From IMG/VR virus record IMGVR_UViG_3300031758_000359, positions 1 to 31,106 of that record: a DNA stretch of 31,106 bases. The stretch is one strand, 5' to 3'. Position numbers and translations under genes: made by a program. The DNA comes from a virus. Shown piece by piece: positions 813 through 16,068 of this stretch. Each line of letters opens with the position of its first letter. Within the stretch, counting starts at the first letter, position 1. The notes below the pieces were generated by a model, which was not told where the DNA came from, made no database searches, and was given only the letters and a program-made list of their open reading frames with translations.

Positions 813-1706
813 TTACTTGGTGCTGATGAACTTGCTGTACTTACTACCCGAGCAGAAACAGTTGCCGACCTGCTTCTCGCAGAACAAGCAATAGCCACAC
901 TCGTAGCAGAACTCCTGCTCCCTGATGCGGTTGACATCTGAACCGAGGTTCACATCGCAGGTGGGGCAGTAGAAGTAGCGGTCGAGGTCGTCGTGCTCGT
1001 TACCTGTCTCAATCCAACCACGGAACTCGTCCCACTCGAACACGGTGCCATCTTCTTCGTCGACCCACACATCGGGGTTGTAGTCGAAGTCGTCGGCAGG
1101 CGTAACGCCGGTGGTGTTGGTGACATGCGAGGTGTACTTGTACGACTGGGCGTACCACTGGTACTTGTACGAGTTGTTGCTGTACCACACGCCGTGGTCC
1201 CAATGACCGTCGCCCTCGTTGACGAGATAGACAGGCTTGGCCAACTGCTTACTCACAGAGATGATGGCCAACTTGCTACCGGCCGCGAACTTCTCCAACT
1301 CTGCGAAGTTCTCGGGGTCGTCGAGCACATTGGCAACACCGAGTTCGGGCAACCATTCCTCTGCGAACTGGCGAGTGTCTGACTTGCCATTCTCTTCCTT
1401 GATGGGAAGCATGCCGTTGTGTGCGAGGACGATGCCCTCGTCGACGACAAAGGGGTGGCAGTTGTCGATACTCGTAGCACCGTGAGTGGTGATACGCAGA
1501 TGGAAGATGGCGTGCGCCTTGGGGTACTCGGCTCGCATCTCGTGGAACAGGTCGATGGTACTGTCGAGGTCCATCGAACGGTGGTGGAACAGTTGGTCCT
1601 TGATGGCGAGGGCAAAGCCGAAGCCATCAGGATTGTTGGCACCAGCGGTACGCAGATTCTTCTTGCTCGGCGTAGCACCAGGCTTGGCATAGATGAGTAG
1701 ACACAT
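813..1706 (-). CDS. Class II glutamine amidotransferase with C-terminal zinc ribbon
   Basis: This 297-residue protein starts MCLLIYAKPG, putting Cys2 at the N-terminus after Met removal, as required of the nucleophile of Ntn-type glutamine amidotransferases. Further family signatures are NNPDGFGFAL (about residues 24-33), RITTHGATSIDNCHPF (about 71-86) and LAHNGML (about 93-99). The core therefore looks intact and should hydrolyse glutamine to glutamate and ammonia. The last 50 residues form a cysteine cluster (C247, C250, C267, C270, C273, C276, C283, C285) that probably binds one or two zinc ions and is an unusual appendage. The start follows AAGGAGAAC. A 16-bp dyad lies 29 bases upstream, between this gene and the amidoligase-like gene, its likely partner. 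The substrate is unknown. Confidence 0.85.
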   Translation of the reverse strand: MCLLIYAKPGATPSKKNLRTAGANNPDGFGFALAIKDQLFHHRSMDLDSTIDLFHEMRAEYPKAHAIFHLRITTHGATSIDNCHPFVVDEGIVLAHNGMLPIKEENGKSDTRQFAEEWLPELGVANVLDDPENFAELEKFAAGSKLAIISVSKQLAKPVYLVNEGDGHWDHGVWYSNNSYKYQWYAQSYKYTSHVTNTTGVTPADDFDYNPDVWVDEEDGTVFEWDEFRGWIETGNEHDDLDRYFYCPTCDVNLGSDVNRIREQEFCYECGYCLFCEKQVGNCFCSGSKYSKFISTK

Positions 1707-1735
1707 GTGTAGTTCTCCTTTGTGATGTGATGAAG

Positions 1736-1751
1736 TGATAGGAACCTATCA
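1736..1751 (-). promoter_or_regulatory. Operator-like dyad, copy 1
   Basis: The plus strand reads TGATAGGAACCTATCA: 7-bp inverted arms around a central AA. It overlaps the stop codon of the amidoligase-like gene, which ends in tandem stops TGA TAG supplied by the dyad, and lies 29 bases upstream of the amidotransferase start. It is identical to copies at 3009, 4043 and 4479. A repressor or activator site is inferred. Confidence 0.7.
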
Positions 1752-2960
1752 GGCCACGCCTCGATGAGACATGAGCGGGTGAAGGTCAGGATAGGTGGCG
1801 ATGTTGTCGCTAGCCCACGCACTGAACTGCGTCCAGTCAAGCGCACGCTTCGACACTGCGTCGTTGGCCCTGATGTCACGGGTGTACTGCCACAACGCAT
1901 GGCTGTACTGAATGATGCCCTTGACAGTTGCGGGACGCAGGCTCGAGCGGAAGTAACGCAACTCGACGGTGTTGGCAGGCTGAATGTTCACCGCAACATA
2001 GCGGTCGTAGTTCGTCTGCTGACCCTTGGCCATTGCCACACGGTTATCGCCGTTCATGCGTCCGAACTTGGCATACGACGAGCGACGACCAGCGAATCGC
2101 TGAATCGCCTCGTAGTTGCGGTCGTGGAAAGTCATGAACTTGTACAGGTGTGAGCCAGATGAGAACGAGTTCTTGCTGATGTGAACATGGATACCGGTGT
2201 CGGTACGACTCCACGCACTCATGCCGTACTCGCTGAGTCGACGCAACTTCTCGAACGGGAACATCTCCAAGTGGACACGATAGTCCGCAGGGTGAGTCAC
2301 GATTTCGAAGCCGTTGATGGAGCCGTCCTCTTTGAGAATGATGTAGTCATTCTCGATACCGTCGAGGAAGAACTCGGCCGCATCGTTGAGGTTGTCCTCG
2401 TCGTCGATGTTGGTCTCGACCTCGATGCCGATGTACGGCATGTTGCGCACACGATGACGAGCGATGCCGTTCACCGTCCACGAACGGAAGGTGAGGTTGT
2501 CGACCGTGTGATGGTACGACTGAATCAGATGAGAGCGATGCGACTGCGGATAACACTCTCCGTTGTCGCAGTAATACTCATCGGTCCTGTCGGAGTACAA
2601 CAGGCTGTTGGTCGCCTGTCTGTAATCGCAGTTGCCACACCGCGAAACATACTCGTCCATACACACACGACATGCGAGGTCGGACTCGTAGTCGTTGATG
2701 AGATTCGTCCACGACTCGGGGAAGTAGTCACCGCACAGTGAGCACGACTCCCCGCTGTCTTCGTGGAACCAGAGGTGAACACATCGTGAGACAACTGACT
2801 GTCCGCTGTCCACGATGTAACTAATCTCACGGTGCCGCAAGAGGTGATGTGGAACCTCGATGCTCATCGCATCGTCACGAGGAATGTTCTCTCGTGTCTC
2901 GAAGCAGAGCACCATCTCTGGTGCCTCCTCCTCCGGTACAAAGTCTTCTGATGCTGTCAT
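1749..2960 (-). CDS. Amidoligase-like enzyme (glutamine synthetase-fold COOH-NH2 ligase) with zinc ribbons
   Basis: The ATG at 2960 (MTASEDFVPEEE) is chosen because AAGGAAATAC precedes it; the frame is open upstream but would run through the regulatory region. The 403-residue product has an N-terminal cysteine region (C73, C76, C97, C100, C108, C111, C131, C136) that is probably zinc-binding. It is followed by motifs of the phage and bacterial amidoligase family: YIGIEVET (about 176-183), KEDGS (210-214), FEIVTHP (218-224), TGIHVHIS (255-262) and a later NTVELRYFRSSL. The family is proposed to join a carboxylate to an amine using ATP, and its genes often sit with class II amidotransferases, as here. 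The reaction and target are inferred; family membership is fairly secure from the motifs. Confidence 0.78.
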   Translation of the reverse strand: MTASEDFVPEEEAPEMVLCFETRENIPRDDAMSIEVPHHLLRHREISYIVDSGQSVVSRCVHLWFHEDSGESCSLCGDYFPESWTNLINDYESDLACRVCMDEYVSRCGNCDYRQATNSLLYSDRTDEYYCDNGECYPQSHRSHLIQSYHHTVDNLTFRSWTVNGIARHRVRNMPYIGIEVETNIDDEDNLNDAAEFFLDGIENDYIILKEDGSINGFEIVTHPADYRVHLEMFPFEKLRRLSEYGMSAWSRTDTGIHVHISKNSFSSGSHLYKFMTFHDRNYEAIQRFAGRRSSYAKFGRMNGDNRVAMAKGQQTNYDRYVAVNIQPANTVELRYFRSSLRPATVKGIIQYSHALWQYTRDIRANDAVSKRALDWTQFSAWASDNIATYPDLHPLMSHRGVA

Positions 2961-2976
2961 GTATTTCCTTTGGTAT

Positions 2977-2995
2977 TGCGTGTTCTCCACACGCA
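2977..2995 (-). other. 7-bp hairpin in the amidoligase leader
   Basis: Inverted arms TGCGTGT and ACACGCA enclose a 5-base loop. It lies between dyad copy 2 and the ribosome binding site of the amidoligase-like gene, so it would form in the 5' leader of that mRNA. It may control stability or initiation; it lacks any ribozyme core sequence. Confidence 0.45.
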
Positions 2996-3008
2996 GACAA
3001 CACACGAA

Positions 3009-3024
3009 TGATAGGAACCTATCA
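3009..3024 (-). promoter_or_regulatory. Operator-like dyad, copy 2
   Basis: This is an exact copy of TGATAGGAACCTATCA, 48 bases upstream of the amidoligase-like start and in the same orientation as the other three. It lies in a 115-base non-coding gap, flanked by two perfect hairpins (2977-2995 and 3045-3062). Confidence 0.7.
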
Positions 3025-3044
3025 CTGATGTGCTCTCTGCGTGG

Positions 3045-3659: not shown

Positions 3660-3782
3660 TCAGTTGTTCTCCTTGTTGTTGTGATTACGGACACGACAGA
3701 CCACGCACTCGTCGTGGTCGGGAGTGTGCTCGAAAGCCCACTCGGTGATGAGAGGCACGCTCTCATTTGTGTCGTTGTTCAT
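3660..3782 (-). CDS. 40-residue protein with C-x-x-C, downstream of hammerhead ribozyme 1
   Basis: The ATG at 3782 (MNNDTNESVPLITEW) follows GAAAGGGAAATCAC, a good ribosome binding site, whereas the longer reading frame would include the ribozyme. The product ends with DECVVCRVRNHNNKENN; the C-x-x-C with nearby histidines (HTPDHDEC) could bind one metal ion. Its mRNA leader contains hammerhead 1, whose predicted cleavage leaves a 55-base leader with a 5' hydroxyl. It is cotranscribed with the acidic gene one base downstream. The function is unknown. Confidence 0.62.
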   Translation of the reverse strand: MNNDTNESVPLITEWAFEHTPDHDECVVCRVRNHNNKENN

Positions 3783-3800
3783 GTGATTTCCCTTTCGGTA

Positions 3801-3860
3801 CACCTGTCTCATCAGACACGGGCGGTGAACTCCGTGTGACGCACCGAAGTGCGTTTCGAC
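3801..3860 (-). ncRNA. Type II hammerhead ribozyme, copy 1
   Basis: Read on the minus strand: stem II 5' side GTC (3860-3858), GAAA (3857-3854), stem III CGCAC/GTGCG capped by TTCG (3853-3840), T and C (3839, 3838), stem I ACACGG/CCGTGT (3837-3832 with 3821-3816), CTGATGA (3815-3809), stem II 3' side GAC (3808-3806). Every invariant core base of the hammerhead is present and the cleavage triplet is GUC, so cleavage is predicted between 3838 and 3837. The loop of stem I contains CACC (3827-3824), complementary to GGTG (3804-3801) just after stem II, giving a pseudoknot. The ribozyme starts inside the TAG stop of the 34-codon gene and ends four bases before the next ribosome binding site. Stem II is only 3 bp, so the pseudoknot probably matters for folding. 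Confidence 0.9.
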
Positions 3861-3964
3861 TAACGCTTCATGTCCTGCGAAATTGACCACGACACACCGT
3901 TTGCGAAACCGCATTGGCAGGTGTACAGCCAGCAGAGCGTTGTGATGTATTGACGGAAATCCAT
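3860..3964 (-). CDS. 34-residue protein between two hammerhead ribozymes
   Basis: The ATG at 3964 opens a 34-codon frame (MDFRQYITTLCWLYTCQCGF at the N-terminus) ending in TAG at 3860. The upstream GAAAGGACATCAC is an excellent ribosome binding site, matching the one before the 40-codon gene, which supports translation. Residues 6-15 are hydrophobic, and three cysteines (11, 16, 18) lie close together, suggesting a small membrane-associated or metal-binding peptide. It is enclosed by hammerhead 2 upstream and hammerhead 1 downstream, so it would lie on a self-excised 181-nt RNA. I recognise no homologue. Being so short, it could instead be a spacer whose ribosome binding site reflects duplication of the element. 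Confidence 0.6.
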   Translation of the reverse strand: MDFRQYITTLCWLYTCQCGFANGVSWSISQDMKR

Positions 3965-3981
3965 GTGATGTCCTTTCGTTG

Positions 3982-4039
3982 CGCCTGTCTCATCAGGTGC
4001 GGTAGGCGAACTCCGCACGACGCCTCACGGCGTTTCGAC
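3982..4039 (-). ncRNA. Type II hammerhead ribozyme, copy 2
   Basis: Minus strand: GTC (4039-4037), GAAA (4036-4033), stem III CGCC/GGCG capped by the GNRA loop GTGA (4032-4021), T and C (4020, 4019), stem I GTGCGG/CCGCAC (4018-4013 with 4002-3997), CTGATGA (3996-3990), GAC (3989-3987). Cleavage is predicted between 4019 and 4018. Compared with copy 1, stem I has three double compensatory changes, stem III differs in length and loop, and the pseudoknot pair is CGCC (4008-4005) with GGCG (3985-3982), one A-U to G-C exchange. The core is identical. It sits three bases from dyad copy 3 and in the leader of the 34-codon gene, leaving a 54-base leader after cleavage. Confidence 0.9.
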
Positions 4040-4042
4040 TCG

Positions 4043-4058
4043 TGATAGGAACCTATCA
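4043..4058 (-). promoter_or_regulatory. Operator-like dyad, copy 3
   Basis: TGATAGGAACCTATCA, here extended to 9-bp arms (GTGATAGGAACCTATCAC). It overlaps the stop of the 135-residue gene, again giving tandem TGA TAG, and lies three bases upstream of hammerhead 2. A promoter here would begin transcripts at or just before the ribozyme. Confidence 0.7.
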
Positions 4059-4463
4059 CTTGTAGCCCATGGCACGCAGGACGATGTCCTGCTTGGCAGG
4101 GGCGAACTTCTTGTTCATCATGAAGATGCGGACGAGGTCGATTTCGTCCTTGCTGAACTTGATGACCTGCTTCTTGCTCGGAGTCGCGTACGACTTCTTG
4201 GTCTCACGGGCGTGTTCGAGCGACTTGAACTCGTCGCAAGTGTGGCCCTGCTTGATGAGGAACATCAACTCCATCACATACTGGCGAATGGTGTTCATCT
4301 TCCAGTCCTGGCTGACCTTTGCCGATGCGACAGCGTAGGGCTGAGCCTTGCCATCGAACTTGCTCAGGCATTCCTCAGCCGCACTCCACCAACCGGCGAG
4401 AGCGGCCTTATTGCCACGACGAATCGCACTCTCGTGCGTGGCGAAGTTTGTCTTGCTGTTCAT
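4056..4463 (-). CDS. Hypothetical helical, basic protein
   Basis: The ATG at 4463 (MNSKTNFATHESAIRRGNKA) is chosen because AAGGAGGAAATGA precedes it; the longer open frame would read through dyad copy 4. The 135-residue product is lysine-rich and predicted helical. The C-terminal stretch (FSKDEIDLVRIFMMNKKFAP) looks like a helix-turn-helix-sized module, so nucleic-acid binding is possible, but I do not recognise the family. The gene is the first of the leftward group under dyad copy 4, 15 bases upstream, and ends inside copy 3, so it is bracketed by two identical sites. If the dyad is autoregulatory, this is one candidate for its binding protein. Confidence 0.72.
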   Translation of the reverse strand: MNSKTNFATHESAIRRGNKAALAGWWSAAEECLSKFDGKAQPYAVASAKVSQDWKMNTIRQYVMELMFLIKQGHTCDEFKSLEHARETKKSYATPSKKQVIKFSKDEIDLVRIFMMNKKFAPAKQDIVLRAMGYK

Positions 4464-4478
4464 TTCATTTCCTCCTTG

Positions 4479-4494
4479 TGATAGGAACCTATCA
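4479..4494 (-). promoter_or_regulatory. Operator-like dyad, copy 4
   Basis: TGATAGGAACCTATCA with 9-bp arms (GTGATAGGAACCTATCAC), immediately upstream of the AAGGAGG ribosome binding site of the 135-residue gene. A protein bound here would block transcription start or ribosome access. I could not identify confident -35 and -10 boxes. Confidence 0.7.
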
Positions 4495-4711
4495 CGGTTG
4501 TGGTTGTGGTTGTTCGGATACGAGCGACCAACCGCAACGGGTCGAACCATTCAGCCCGCTGTGCGCTGTTCTCCTACCCTTGCTTCGCACGGTGTAAGTG
4601 CGGATACGGAACGCCCCTGGTCAGGGTGCTATTCGACCCCAATACGACGACAAGGGGGGCGCATGGGGGCCCACCGCCAGCCCACTAGACGGAGTCCCTC
4701 CGCGCAGAGCC
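4495..4711. other. Non-coding stretch without recognised gene
   Basis: No reading frame here has a ribosome binding site or convincing composition. It contains a short GT-rich run, a weak hairpin (CGCAC/GTGCG around 4588) and G-runs near 4654-4670. It probably carries the promoter for the leftward group starting at 4463. A T-arm-like string (GGTTCGACC, minus strand) has no accompanying D-arm or acceptor stem. Confidence 0.4.
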
Positions 4712-4755: not shown

Positions 4756-5022
4756 CTAGTGGAAGCCAGCGGTGGCTAGTGGCGTTCTGTTCACTATGCA
4801 GGGCTTATATATAGCGATGGCGACAGAGTACGTTCCGCTGAATGGGTCGAATGTCGTCGCCAAATGGATGTAATGTTCGTCTTCTCCGACCACATAACCC
4901 GTGCTAAAGATATGTCTGTAGGGGTGTTTGGTGTTGAGGTCGTACCACTCGTCTTCAATGCTGAAGGAGTCCCACCATTCGATGATTTGAATGGGGGGTG
5001 TTTTGAACTCGGTTTGGCTCAT
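4756..5022 (-). CDS. Hypothetical protein
   Basis: The ATG at 5022 (MSQTEFKTPPIQIIEWWDSF) is preferred because it overlaps the upstream stop as ATGA; an in-frame start 17 codons earlier would overlap the neighbour more. The 88-residue product is rich in aromatic residues (EWWDSF, DEWYDLN, HPYRHIF) and predicted mostly beta, with one cysteine. There is no membrane segment and I recognise no family. It is the distal gene of a three-gene leftward operon starting at the divergent hinge, next to the terminase. Confidence 0.68.
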   Translation of the reverse strand: MSQTEFKTPPIQIIEWWDSFSIEDEWYDLNTKHPYRHIFSTGYVVGEDEHYIHLATTFDPFSGTYSVAIAIYKPCIVNRTPLATAGFH

Positions 5023-5330
5023 GAGCCTTTGACCCATTTCTTTGACGGCGATGCCGTCTTGCTGGGCGACCATTTGACTTTGTCCGCCCAGTAGGCGGCG
5101 GACATGGGACCCTTGGAGATGTTCTTGGCGTGTCGGCTCTTGAAGGCTTCCCGCTGGCCGGCAGTCTGGTTGGTCCTGACCCCCTGTTGGCCGAACCTGA
5201 TGGTCTTGACCTGGCCGCCTGACTTGGCGACTACGATGTGGGACTTTGTGGGGTGGCCAGGGGTGCGCTTGGGCTTGTTGTAGCCGCTGACGCCAGCCCT
5301 GGCGAGGCGAGGGTCCTTGCCGGCCGCCAT
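5019..5330 (-). CDS. Conserved basic phage protein (DUF6321-like)
   Basis: The start at 5330 (MAAGKDPRLARAGVSGYNKP) is fixed by context: the upstream TGA ends one base before it. The 103-residue product is strongly basic and carries a pattern I associate with a widespread phage family of unknown function: PKRTPGHPTKSHIVVAK, KTIRFGQQGV, then AFKSRHAKNISKGPMSAAYW. I recall this as DUF6321, but the number should be checked. Family members often lie near terminase or structural genes, as here. High charge and conserved Gly, Lys and His residues suggest nucleic-acid contact; no function is established. Confidence 0.75.
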   Translation of the reverse strand: MAAGKDPRLARAGVSGYNKPKRTPGHPTKSHIVVAKSGGQVKTIRFGQQGVRTNQTAGQREAFKSRHAKNISKGPMSAAYWADKVKWSPSKTASPSKKWVKGS

Positions 5331-5331
5331 G

Positions 5332-5589
5332 TCAGACGTCCATGTTCTGTCGACGTACGCCCTTGCTCGCCTTCTTCTTGGCACCACCACGACGAATAGC
5401 GTCAGAGACAGTCTCGCGGCGGGTCACGCCAGCGCCGGGATTTCCGACTGGCTTCTCCTTGCCGTAGCCCTCGTGGTACCGCTTGGACTCGCCCATCTTG
5501 ACCTTCTTGCCAGTCTTGGCGGCTGCCTTCTTGGCAGCCTCCTTGCCCTTGGCCGTGTACGGGAACTTCTTTCCACCAACAGTGGGCAT
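5332..5589 (-). CDS. Small lysine-rich phage protein
   Basis: The 85-residue product begins MPTVGGKKFPYTAKGKEAAK and contains a lysine/alanine tract (residues 12-32) resembling histone tails or DNA-condensing peptides. Proteins with the N-terminal pattern MP-x-VG-KKF-x-YT occur in many phages, without known function. The start is preceded by AAGAAGGAGCAGGGAC. It is the first leftward gene at the divergent hinge and one base from the next gene, so the two basic proteins are probably cotranslated. A DNA-binding or virion role is plausible but unproven. Confidence 0.72.
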   Translation of the reverse strand: MPTVGGKKFPYTAKGKEAAKKAAAKTGKKVKMGESKRYHEGYGKEKPVGNPGAGVTRRETVSDAIRRGGAKKKASKGVRRQNMDV

Positions 5590-10239: not shown

Positions 10240-11832
10240 ATGGAACTAACCGAACTGCTCAACGAGCGGGAATGGCGGGCCTGCCGAGGCCCGTCTGACG
10301 CTAGCATCGACCAACTTGTCGAAGCATTCACTTACTTCTGCGAGAACTATTGGGCGATTAAGCATCCTGAGCGTGGACGGATTATGTTTGAACTGCGTGA
10401 AGCGCAGGTCGAAACAATCCGCGCCTGGATGACCAACCGTTATAGCGTCGTGCTCAAAGCCCGCCAGATTGGATTTTCCACCCTGGCGGCAGCCTACGCA
10501 TTCTGGCTTGCATTCTTTTGGCCAGACAGATTTATCGTCATGCTTTCGCGCACCGAGCGCGAAGCGGCCAAGTTGCTGCAGAAGTCGAAGTACGGCTACA
10601 AGTTCTTGCCTTCATGGCTCAAGCAGCGTGGCCCCCAGTTGACTTCAGACAACCAGTTGAAGATGACATTCGCCAATGAGTCTGCAATCGAGTCGCTGCC
10701 TTCGGGCAATGACCCTGCTCGTGGTGAATCCGTGTATTTGGTTGTCGTCGACGAGATGGCGTTCTTGCCAAACAGCGAGGAAGCCTGGGCCTCCATCGAG
10801 CCGATTGCTGACGTTGGCGGTCGCGTAATATGTCTGTCAACTGCTAATGGTTCTGGAAACTTCTTTCATCACCTTTGGGTCGGCTCCCAAACTGGAACCA
10901 ATAACTTCCAGGGAATCTTCTGGCCGTGGTCGGCCGGCGACAGAGACGAGGATTGGTATGAAGCCAAAGAGAAGTCGATGCCTTCTTGGCAGTTGCACCA
11001 GGAGTATCCTCGAAATCCTGAAGAGGCATTCATTAAGTCGGGTAATCCTGTTTTCGATGTGGACGCTTTGCGCACATTGGCTACTGAGGAGCCACGGCGG
11101 GGCTATGTACATGTCATCTCCCGAAAGAACATGGAATACCGAGACACTCCCGATGGAGAATTTAGAGTCTGGGCAGAGCCAGACTTCGAGGGAGTTTACG
11201 TCATCGGTGCAGACGTGGCGGAAGGGTTGGCTCATGGAGACTACTCGTCTGCACATGTAGTGGACGCTCGCGACCGTAGCGTCGTGGCACATTGGCATGG
11301 CCACATCGAGCCAGACCTGTTCGGGGACCTGCTGGCTGAGATTGGCTACTGGTACAACGGGGCGCTTTTGGGCGTGGAGAACAACAACCACGGTCTGACC
11401 ACCCTGAAGGCGCTTCAGCGATACGGCTACAAGAATATCTACCGCACCCGCAGACTCCAGCAGCGCAATCCCGAGGCCACGGAAATCCTGGGTTGGCGCA
11501 CCACTACGGCCACCAAGCCGCTGGCCATCGACGAACTGGCTGCCGCCATTCGTGATGGGGACATCGGATTAGCGGATGCGCTTACAGTCCAGGAACTCAT
11601 TACCTTCGTCCGCCAGGCCAACGGCAGGATGAACGGCTCCCCACACGACGACAGGGTGATGTCACTGGCAATTACCTGGCAAATGCTCAAGTATGTCTGG
11701 CTCCCAGAGTACCGGACCGAGGCTCCGCCCCCCAGGTATTCGCTGAATTGGTTCGAGAAGTTCTTGGTCAGCGAGGACGAGCCGTTCAAACGGGTGCCAA
11801 TCGGGGCATACAACGCCAGAAACCGTGGGTAA
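10240..11832 (+). CDS. terL: Terminase large subunit
   Basis: The 530-residue protein is the packaging motor ATPase and nuclease. The N-terminal ATPase has a variant Walker A LKARQIGFST (about residues 72-81), a Walker B YLVVVDE (about 166-172) and a coupling motif LSTANGSG (199-206). The RNase H-like nuclease has its acidic residues in IGADVAEG (D325), LLGVENNN (E380) and SPHDDRV (D470/D471). All catalytic positions expected of the family are present. It uses ATP to drive DNA into the prohead through the portal and cuts the concatemer. The gene starts three bases after the fibre gene stop, is separated from the small subunit by the fibre cassette, and is followed by a zinc protein. Confidence 0.95.
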   Translation: MELTELLNEREWRACRGPSDASIDQLVEAFTYFCENYWAIKHPERGRIMFELREAQVETIRAWMTNRYSVVLKARQIGFSTLAAAYAFWLAFFWPDRFIVMLSRTEREAAKLLQKSKYGYKFLPSWLKQRGPQLTSDNQLKMTFANESAIESLPSGNDPARGESVYLVVVDEMAFLPNSEEAWASIEPIADVGGRVICLSTANGSGNFFHHLWVGSQTGTNNFQGIFWPWSAGDRDEDWYEAKEKSMPSWQLHQEYPRNPEEAFIKSGNPVFDVDALRTLATEEPRRGYVHVISRKNMEYRDTPDGEFRVWAEPDFEGVYVIGADVAEGLAHGDYSSAHVVDARDRSVVAHWHGHIEPDLFGDLLAEIGYWYNGALLGVENNNHGLTTLKALQRYGYKNIYRTRRLQQRNPEATEILGWRTTTATKPLAIDELAAAIRDGDIGLADALTVQELITFVRQANGRMNGSPHDDRVMSLAITWQMLKYVWLPEYRTEAPPPRYSLNWFEKFLVSEDEPFKRVPIGAYNARNRG

Positions 11833-15126: not shown

Positions 15127-16068
15127 ATGGCTGGAAACGCTTCATTCGACGCGCTTCTCTCAACGACTCTTGCGAACTACCGCAAGCAGTTGACCGACAA
15201 CGTGTTCACGGCTCGTCCGCTGACCTACTTCCTCATGGATAAGGGTCGCATCCGCATGCTGGATGGCGGTACGAAGATTGTTGAGCCGCTCATCTACGGT
15301 CAGAACTCGACCGTCGCCTCCTACTCGGGCTACGACACCCTGTCGTTGACCGCCCAGGAAGGCATCACCGCCGCTGAGTACGATTGGAAGCAGTACGCTG
15401 TGTCCATCGCCATCTCGGGAATTGAAGAGGCGAAGAACAACGGCGAAGCCGCTGTCCTCAACCTGCTCGAAGCCAAGGTCATGCAGGCCGAGGAGTCGAT
15501 GCGTGAAGGCTTCAACCAGATGTTTTTCAGCAATGGCACCGGCAACTCGGGCAAGAACTGGAACGGCCTCGGCAACCTCGTGTCGTCGGTCGGAACCGTT
15601 GGTGGCATCAACCGCGCCACCTCGGGCAACGAGTTCTGGCGCTCGTACGTGAACGCCAACGCTGGCGCTCTCACGCTCGGCAAGATGACCACGGCGTACA
15701 ACACCACCTCGGTTGGCAACGACCACCCCGACATGGTGCTGACCACCCAGACCCTGTTCGAGAAGTATGAGTCGCTCCTGCAGCCGCAGTTGCGCTACAC
15801 CGACACCAAGACCGCAGACGCTGGCTTCCAGAACCTGCTGTTCAAGGCTGCTCCCGTGGCGTATGACGTGCACTGCCCCGCTGGCTACATGTACTTCCTC
15901 AACAGCAAGTACCTCACCCTGGTGGGTCACTCGGGCAAGTGGTTCTCGAACACGGACTTCGTCCGTCCCGAGAACATGGACGCCCGCTACGCGCTCATCA
16001 TGTGCTACGGCAACTTGACGGTCCGCAACGCCGCCAAGCAGGGTGTCATCACCGACGCTACCGCCTGA
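15127..16068 (+). CDS. Major capsid protein
   Basis: The 313-residue protein begins MAGNASFDALLSTTLANYRK, preceded by AAGGAG. N-terminal arm, E-loop-like VEPLIYGQNSTVASYSGYDT (about residues 57-76), then WKQYAVSIAISGIEEAKNNG and a C-terminal DFVRPENMDARYALIMCYGN fit the HK97-type capsid fold in a size usual for tailed phages. High GC and biased codon use, compared with neighbouring fibre genes, agree with strong expression. It follows the scaffold and is followed at once by a strong terminator, which should raise capsid mRNA over downstream structural genes. Confidence 0.92.
   Translation: MAGNASFDALLSTTLANYRKQLTDNVFTARPLTYFLMDKGRIRMLDGGTKIVEPLIYGQNSTVASYSGYDTLSLTAQEGITAAEYDWKQYAVSIAISGIEEAKNNGEAAVLNLLEAKVMQAEESMREGFNQMFFSNGTGNSGKNWNGLGNLVSSVGTVGGINRATSGNEFWRSYVNANAGALTLGKMTTAYNTTSVGNDHPDMVLTTQTLFEKYESLLQPQLRYTDTKTADAGFQNLLFKAAPVAYDVHCPAGYMYFLNSKYLTLVGHSGKWFSNTDFVRPENMDARYALIMCYGNLTVRNAAKQGVITDATA

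Follow-up and report, generated by a model that had tools for sequence, protein, structure and literature searches.

Two short intergenic gaps at successive junctions in a set of small phage genes each hold what a first-pass annotation, made from the letters alone, had described as a complete type II hammerhead ribozyme. The locus raises the question of whether both are genuine hammerheads and, if so, what a pair of self-cutting RNAs would do to the message that carries them. The two elements, here called copies A and B, lie in the IMG/VR virus record IMGVR_UViG_3300031758_000359, the whole of which (31,106 bases) we analysed and refer to as the window. It carries tailed-phage genes, together with a leftward set of mostly small genes running from about 5.1 kb to 0.2 kb, to which the two junctions belong; a 37,092-base contig repeats both the leftward genes and the hammerheads. 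The same leftward set includes an amidotransferase-like gene (GATase_4, class II glutamine amidotransferase-like) and an amidoligase-like gene, which adjoin each other at 813-3003.

Anatomy of the two hammerheads

Read directly on the minus strand, copy A runs from 4039 as GTC-GAA-ACGCC(GTGA)GGCGT-C^-GTGCGG(AGTTCGCCTA)CCGCAC-CTGATGA-GAC-A-GGCG and copy B from 3860 as GTC-GAA-ACGCAC(TTCG)GTGCGT-C^-ACACGG(AGTTCACCGC)CCGTGT-CTGATGA-GAC-A-GGTG (Table 1). Both are permuted as GAA-stem III-H17-stem I-CUGAUGA, with stems I and III closed and a terminal, open stem II, and the invariant core (C3-A9, G12-A14, A15.1, U16.1, H17) is complete in each, both by direct reading and by the scanner described below. 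The first-pass annotation was thus right that neither copy lacks an invariant base or its GUC cleavage site, and the positions that it gave for the cuts, after 4019 and after 3838, each fall on C17. Four base pairs link loop I to the 3' tail in each copy, forming a pseudoknot that is frequent, though not obligatory, in type II hammerheads. The differences that it listed between the copies also agree with the sequence: three double changes in stem I, a TTCG against a GNRA loop on stem III, and CACC/GGTG against CGCC/GGCG in the pseudoknot. With their tails the two copies span 3794-4040, compared with the 3801-4039 first given, and each is followed by AAAGGR and an ATG.

As to a recent local duplication, the identity of A to B over stem I and tail is 0.65, which is about the 95th percentile of pairs drawn from different contigs. 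Nearest-neighbour folding without the pseudoknot favours alternative structures, by 5.0 kcal/mol for A and 3.8 kcal/mol for B; both gaps lie within the range of the hammerhead family (median 3.1 kcal/mol). Gaps of this kind run through the entire family, which makes minimum-free-energy folding uninformative about activity.

Table 1. Positions of the two hammerheads, their parts and the neighbouring features in the window.
Feature	Position	Strand	Details
Gene upstream of copy A	4056..4463	minus	135 aa from ATG 4463, no assigned function; ORF with ribosome-binding site AAGGAGG
Palindrome GTGATAGGTTCCTATCAC	4042..4059	minus	directly ahead of copy A
Copy A, type II hammerhead	3975..4040	minus	direct reading; independent covariance model; G006 orthologue
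Copy A, stem II	4039-4037/3989-3987
Copy A, GAA	4036-4034
Copy A, stem III	4033-4020		GUGA loop
Copy A, C17	4019
Copy A, stem I	4018-4013/4002-3997
Copy A, CUGAUGA	3996-3990
Copy A, predicted cut	4018..4019	minus	between C4019 and G4018; from hammerhead chemistry (3' of H17)
Copy A, pseudoknot	3982..4008	minus	loop I CGCC 4008-4005 with tail GGCG 3985-3982
34-codon ORF between A and B (MDFRQYITTLCW...)	3860..3964	minus	AAAGGA precedes ATG
Copy B, type II hammerhead	3794..3861	minus	Rfam RF02276; independent covariance model
Copy B, stem II	3860-3858/3808-3806
Copy B, GAA	3857-3855
Copy B, stem III	3854-3839		UUCG loop
Copy B, C17	3838
Copy B, stem I	3837-3832/3821-3816
Copy B, CUGAUGA	3815-3809
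Copy B, predicted cut	3837..3838	minus	between C3838 and A3837; inferred
Copy B, pseudoknot	3801..3827	minus	loop I CACC 3827-3824 with tail GGUG 3804-3801
40-codon ORF downstream of copy B (MNNDTNESVPLI...)	3660..3782	minus	AAAGGG precedes ATG
Terminase large subunit	10240-11832	plus
Major head protein	15127-16068	plus

Covariance models and family-wide covariation

The first-pass annotation had named the Rfam type II model as a check, with scores below threshold on both copies counting against it. In a search of the window, RF02276 (Hammerhead_II) reports copy B with 37.3 bits, just over its cut-off of 37 (E 2.8e-4), and does not report copy A even at E < 0.5, leaving one of the two above threshold. 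The same model also omits intact copies in four other contigs (L342, L220, L032 and L085), which a covariance model of our own finds at 46-59 bits. The miss of copy A is therefore a limit of the Rfam model, whose threshold is an annotation criterion and not a biological one; we rejected it as sole judge and, because it under-calls, counts based on annotation are too low.

To compare the pair with its family, hammerheads were gathered from other viral contigs by a sequence pattern that selects a GUC/GAC stem II and a GUC site, giving at least 120 stretches; the viral set, like the cellular one used below, is a sample. A stem-checking scanner, not designed to detect decayed copies, kept the pattern matches in which all three stems could be checked (163 unique among the matches listed) and returned 0 matches on 2.09 Mb of reversed control sequence. 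Our covariance model was built from 21 hammerheads of uniform size from other phages, the window phage being excluded. With this model copy B reaches 72.0 bits (E 4.7e-18) and copy A 62.0 bits (E 2.9e-15); the E-values are rough, and the next-best match in the window has 8 bits.

Since stem II and the core are largely set by the search pattern, the independent evidence resides in stems I and III and in the pseudoknot. Across the 21-hammerhead alignment, 94.8% of cells pair (71% in shuffles) and double changes are found at 17 of 20 pairs (10.5 in shuffles), while sliding the partners against each other destroys the pairing. In the pseudoknot helix, 81% of cells are paired and all 5 pairs show double changes. 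Judged from sequence, these results confirm A and B as tandem type II hammerheads, as originally proposed, and indicate that the likeness is not a chance resemblance.

Conservation among related phages

The pair was compared with 40 contigs that encode a related major head protein. Hammerhead matches occur in 4 of these, one of which (G001) is the same phage as the window; many of the 40 are fragments, so this figure is a lower bound. The informative relative is G006, in which the head protein is 90% and the amidoligase-like protein 71% identical to those of the window. It has a single hammerhead at the place of copy A, with homologous neighbours on both sides, and this orthologue carries a compensatory change in stem I (GTGTGG/CCACAC, as against GTGCGG/CCGCAC in the window) as well as U instead of C at H17. 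The earlier argument that covariation between A and B reflects selected structure holds, and the conservation of copy A in G006 and the family alignment are far stronger evidence for it than the A/B comparison alone. G006 has neither copy B nor the ORF that A and B enclose, and G009, whose anchor gene is 89% identical, has other genes and no hammerhead. The hammerheads of the two further contigs, G025 and G034, have a different stem II and belong to another subclass. The elements are, in short, conserved locally and patchy overall, and their absence from this place in most related phages means that their function is dispensable.

DNA similarity searches against sequenced phages gave short matches only, which lay elsewhere in the region, and when the ribozyme region was searched permissively the matches had E-values of about 1-3, two of them proving on inspection to be hammerheads. 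At 5019-5390, the DNA under the ORF of a small basic protein matches short segments of phages that are otherwise dissimilar (MW202867, C72C1 and Roseobacter phages), at 68-81% identity.

A palindrome adjoins copy A. Four copies of the arrangement TGATAG-N4-CTATCA are present among the leftward genes (1735-1752, 3008-3025, 4042-4059 and 4478-4495; chance expectation 0), each shortly ahead of a gene, and G006 has four palindromes at matching places, one of them, with the same half-sites, directly ahead of the orthologous hammerhead. Their symmetric end changes and variable centres in G006 suggest the DNA operator of a dimeric regulator, for which the palindrome is a candidate; it may alternatively act as an RNA hairpin. 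The words 'operator' and 'early mRNA' in the first-pass annotation are to be read as inferences.

Placement of type II hammerheads between genes

Both copies sit in short gaps between small co-oriented genes, as had been noted at the outset. The stop codon of the 135-aa gene ends 16 nt ahead of stem II of copy A, and G006 has a similarly placed gene. The 34-codon ORF meets copy B more closely: its TAG stop occupies 3862-3860, so that its final base also opens stem II, and this is the commonest register among the 153 viral hammerheads listed with enough flank for analysis.

These 153 copies allowed us to examine placement in phages at large, using mechanical open frames and, upstream, only frames of at least 50 codons. 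In 70% of them the end of the upstream stop lies no more than 3 nt from the first stem II base, as compared with 2.3% of random positions in the same contigs, and 127 of the 153 have an upstream stop before them and a start with a Shine-Dalgarno sequence after them (random, 12%), the starts being concentrated 17-30 nt past stem II. A second set, the matches listed from bacterial and archaeal genomes, shows the same stop register in 37/98 (random, 2.9%) and a position between stop and start in 75/98 (random, 10%).

The first-pass annotation had considered tandem copies unusual. This does not hold: published clusters are known from prophages (PMC3088659), and 32 of the 117 hammerhead loci listed hold two or more copies, three of these loci being the window phage itself. 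A tandem type II pair is ordinary for phages, where the arrangement is very common. Among the matches listed, copies within a contig always share a strand, with none on both strands, and the distance from copy to copy tracks gene length (179-2426 nt). Long series include ten consecutive co-oriented type II hammerheads at 3318-6711 of L085 (IMGVR_UViG_3300000217_000001), where genes separate nearly all neighbouring copies and a stop codon mostly overlaps the first ribozyme bases, and eight at 8158-11329 of L032 (IMGVR_UViG_3300008255_000242), again co-oriented and lying between successive genes. No constant partner gene was found downstream among the matches listed; many families occur there, the commonest, DUF932, in 4 of 102 cases.

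The loop closing stem III, which takes no part in the contact between loop I and the tail, is strongly biased. Among the 104 four-base loops of the matches listed, UUCG accounts for 33 (0.6 expected from base composition), GNRA for 28 (2.2 expected) and other UNCG loops for at least 14.

Unannotated type II hammerheads are also present in Brevibacillus phage Emery (L342, 4976-5047) and Anoxybacillus phage A403 (L343, 4972-5041), the second of which Rfam reports and the first of which it does not. In phage Emery, gene 73 as annotated in the deposited record ends at base 4977 of L342, exactly where stem II begins in the hammerhead starting at 4976. The 8-kb contig L293, assigned by binning to an Asgard archaeon (MAG labelled Candidatus Lokiarchaeota), also has a hammerhead pattern match, at 1946-2005; this contig may be viral or misbinned.

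A model for the pair and its alternatives

We consider it probable that A and B act as intercistronic punctuation, cutting a shared messenger into gene-length pieces. The leftward operon would be transcribed through both copies, and each RNA would fold with loops closing stems I and III, the pseudoknot between loop I and the 3' tail aligning stems I and II side by side. One predicted self-cut per copy, after 4019 in A and after 3838 in B, would then separate the gene that ends at 4056 from a 181-nt piece with the 34-codon ORF, and this piece from a message opening with the 40-codon ORF. Because a type II hammerhead is permuted such that its cleavage site is flanked by the two closed hairpins, the upstream message would end in stem III, with a stable tetraloop and a 2',3'-cyclic phosphate, and the downstream message would begin with stem I and a 5'-OH. 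Hairpin ends of this kind should withstand exonucleases and 5'-end-dependent RNase E, so that neighbouring genes could be translated and degraded independently. The analysis shows the identity, covariation, position, orientation and loop bias of the elements, while activity of A and B, protection of the ends and decoupled expression are what we infer. The tetraloop bias and the tight stop register would fit selection for a protected 3' end right after the upstream gene, and the extra-stable loops may instead serve folding rather than end protection.

A broader form of this proposal, which we put forward tentatively and with some doubt, holds that type II hammerheads serve quite generally to punctuate phage transcripts, one per junction, their first base shared with or directly after the upstream stop and both products capped by hairpins, with the window pair as a small case. 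A ribosome terminating there would sit over both stem II and the GAA strand, and might thereby gate cleavage, making it wait until translation of the upstream gene ends.

Other readings differ in what they take to be selected. If the ribozymes were mainly 5' leaders, the defined 5' end of the downstream gene (stem I hairpin, 5'-OH, exposed ribosome-binding site) would matter and separation would be a by-product, as in synthetic insulators such as RiboJ. The concentration of starts downstream of the 153 viral copies and the AAAGGR and ATG after both window copies favour this, as do haloviruses HF1/HF2, whose hammerhead lies 13 nt ahead of a start codon and has a mapped 5' end no more than three nucleotides from where it cuts (PMC3088659). 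We nevertheless find it unlikely, since the upstream-stop register is as tight as the downstream-start register and the strongest stability bias is that of loop III, which stays on the upstream piece. Neutral or selfish passengers, spread among phage operons and tolerated, would account for the patchy distribution (4/40, one of them the same phage), the other subclass in further relatives and the inconstant neighbouring gene; the compensatory change in the G006 orthologue, the family-wide covariation, the precise placement at stop codons and the lack of a mobile gene at the copies examined make this distinctly improbable.

Excision could also be the purpose of the pair, which would then release the 181-nt RNA lying between its cuts to serve, like a retrozyme, as a functional small or circular RNA; this seems to us more improbable still. 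Two co-oriented copies would free such a piece, with 5'-OH and cyclic-phosphate ends that could be joined by a ligase, but G006 has no copy B and no enclosed ORF, copy spacing follows gene length, and Perreault et al., who searched such arrays for circular or spliced products, detected none (PMC3088659). The missing copy B and ORF, the spacing and the type II topology also argue against a retrozyme or circular RNA element. There is, finally, scarcely any likelihood that transcription terminators or chance hairpins merely look like hammerheads here: the stem-loops are GC-rich, lie at gene ends and have UUCG or GNRA loops, but no GC-rich hairpin with a T run, as in an intrinsic terminator, occurs at A or B, and chance is opposed by the empty reversed control and by model E-values of 3e-15 or better.

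The intercistronic punctuation proposed here is open to experiment, as testable predictions about transcript processing follow from the stop-codon register, from the bias in loop III and from the near one-per-junction arrays. Brevibacillus phage Emery and Anoxybacillus phage A403 have culturable hosts in which these could be tested.

Comparison with known systems

Our search, which covered the open literature, found no dedicated study of phage hammerhead arrays after 2011, only reviews. The 2017 review by De la Pena and colleagues describes a persistent link between hammerheads and phages and treats their prokaryotic and phage role as an open question (PMC6155905). The available parts of PMC3088659 and PMC6155905 make no mention of the stop-codon register, the loop III bias or a ten-copy array, which we offer as measurements and not as firsts.

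Perreault et al. (2011) reported type II hammerheads with the loop I/3'-tail pseudoknot in gene-flanking clusters in prophages, and tandem arrays that cleave in vitro, that of A. tumefaciens also in E. coli; 4 of 18 consensus hammerheads were inactive in published tests (PMC3088659). A and B share with the type II hammerhead (RF02276) its topology, core, closed stems I and III, short open stem II, pseudoknot and phage context, and differ from it in that copy A falls below the Rfam model, their anatomy otherwise being nothing new. The viroid-like circular RNAs and retrozymes resemble the pair in that two co-oriented hammerheads bound a short RNA, but those hammerheads are of type I or III and the excised unit is conserved and circularised (PMC4918200, PMC7761336), whereas A and B are of type II and the unit between them is not conserved and has a coding role. 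The HHphage hammerhead of haloviruses HF1/HF2 is likewise viral, just upstream of a start codon and in a polycistronic transcript, but it is a core variant in an archaeal host, reported upstream of a helicase gene and not as a tandem pair (PMC3088659).

The closest likeness is to the prophage arrays of Clostridium scindens, Azorhizobium caulinodans and Agrobacterium tumefaciens, in which co-oriented hammerheads flank individual small genes and for which processing into gene-length pieces was already proposed (PMC3088659). Given that published arrangement, the window pair is already known in kind. It differs from the prophage arrays in its phage and genes, since here two copies enclose a 34-codon ORF and the source is a metagenomic virus record. 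What the present analysis adds is anatomy: the stop register, the shared strand, the varied neighbours and the tetraloop bias of loop III.
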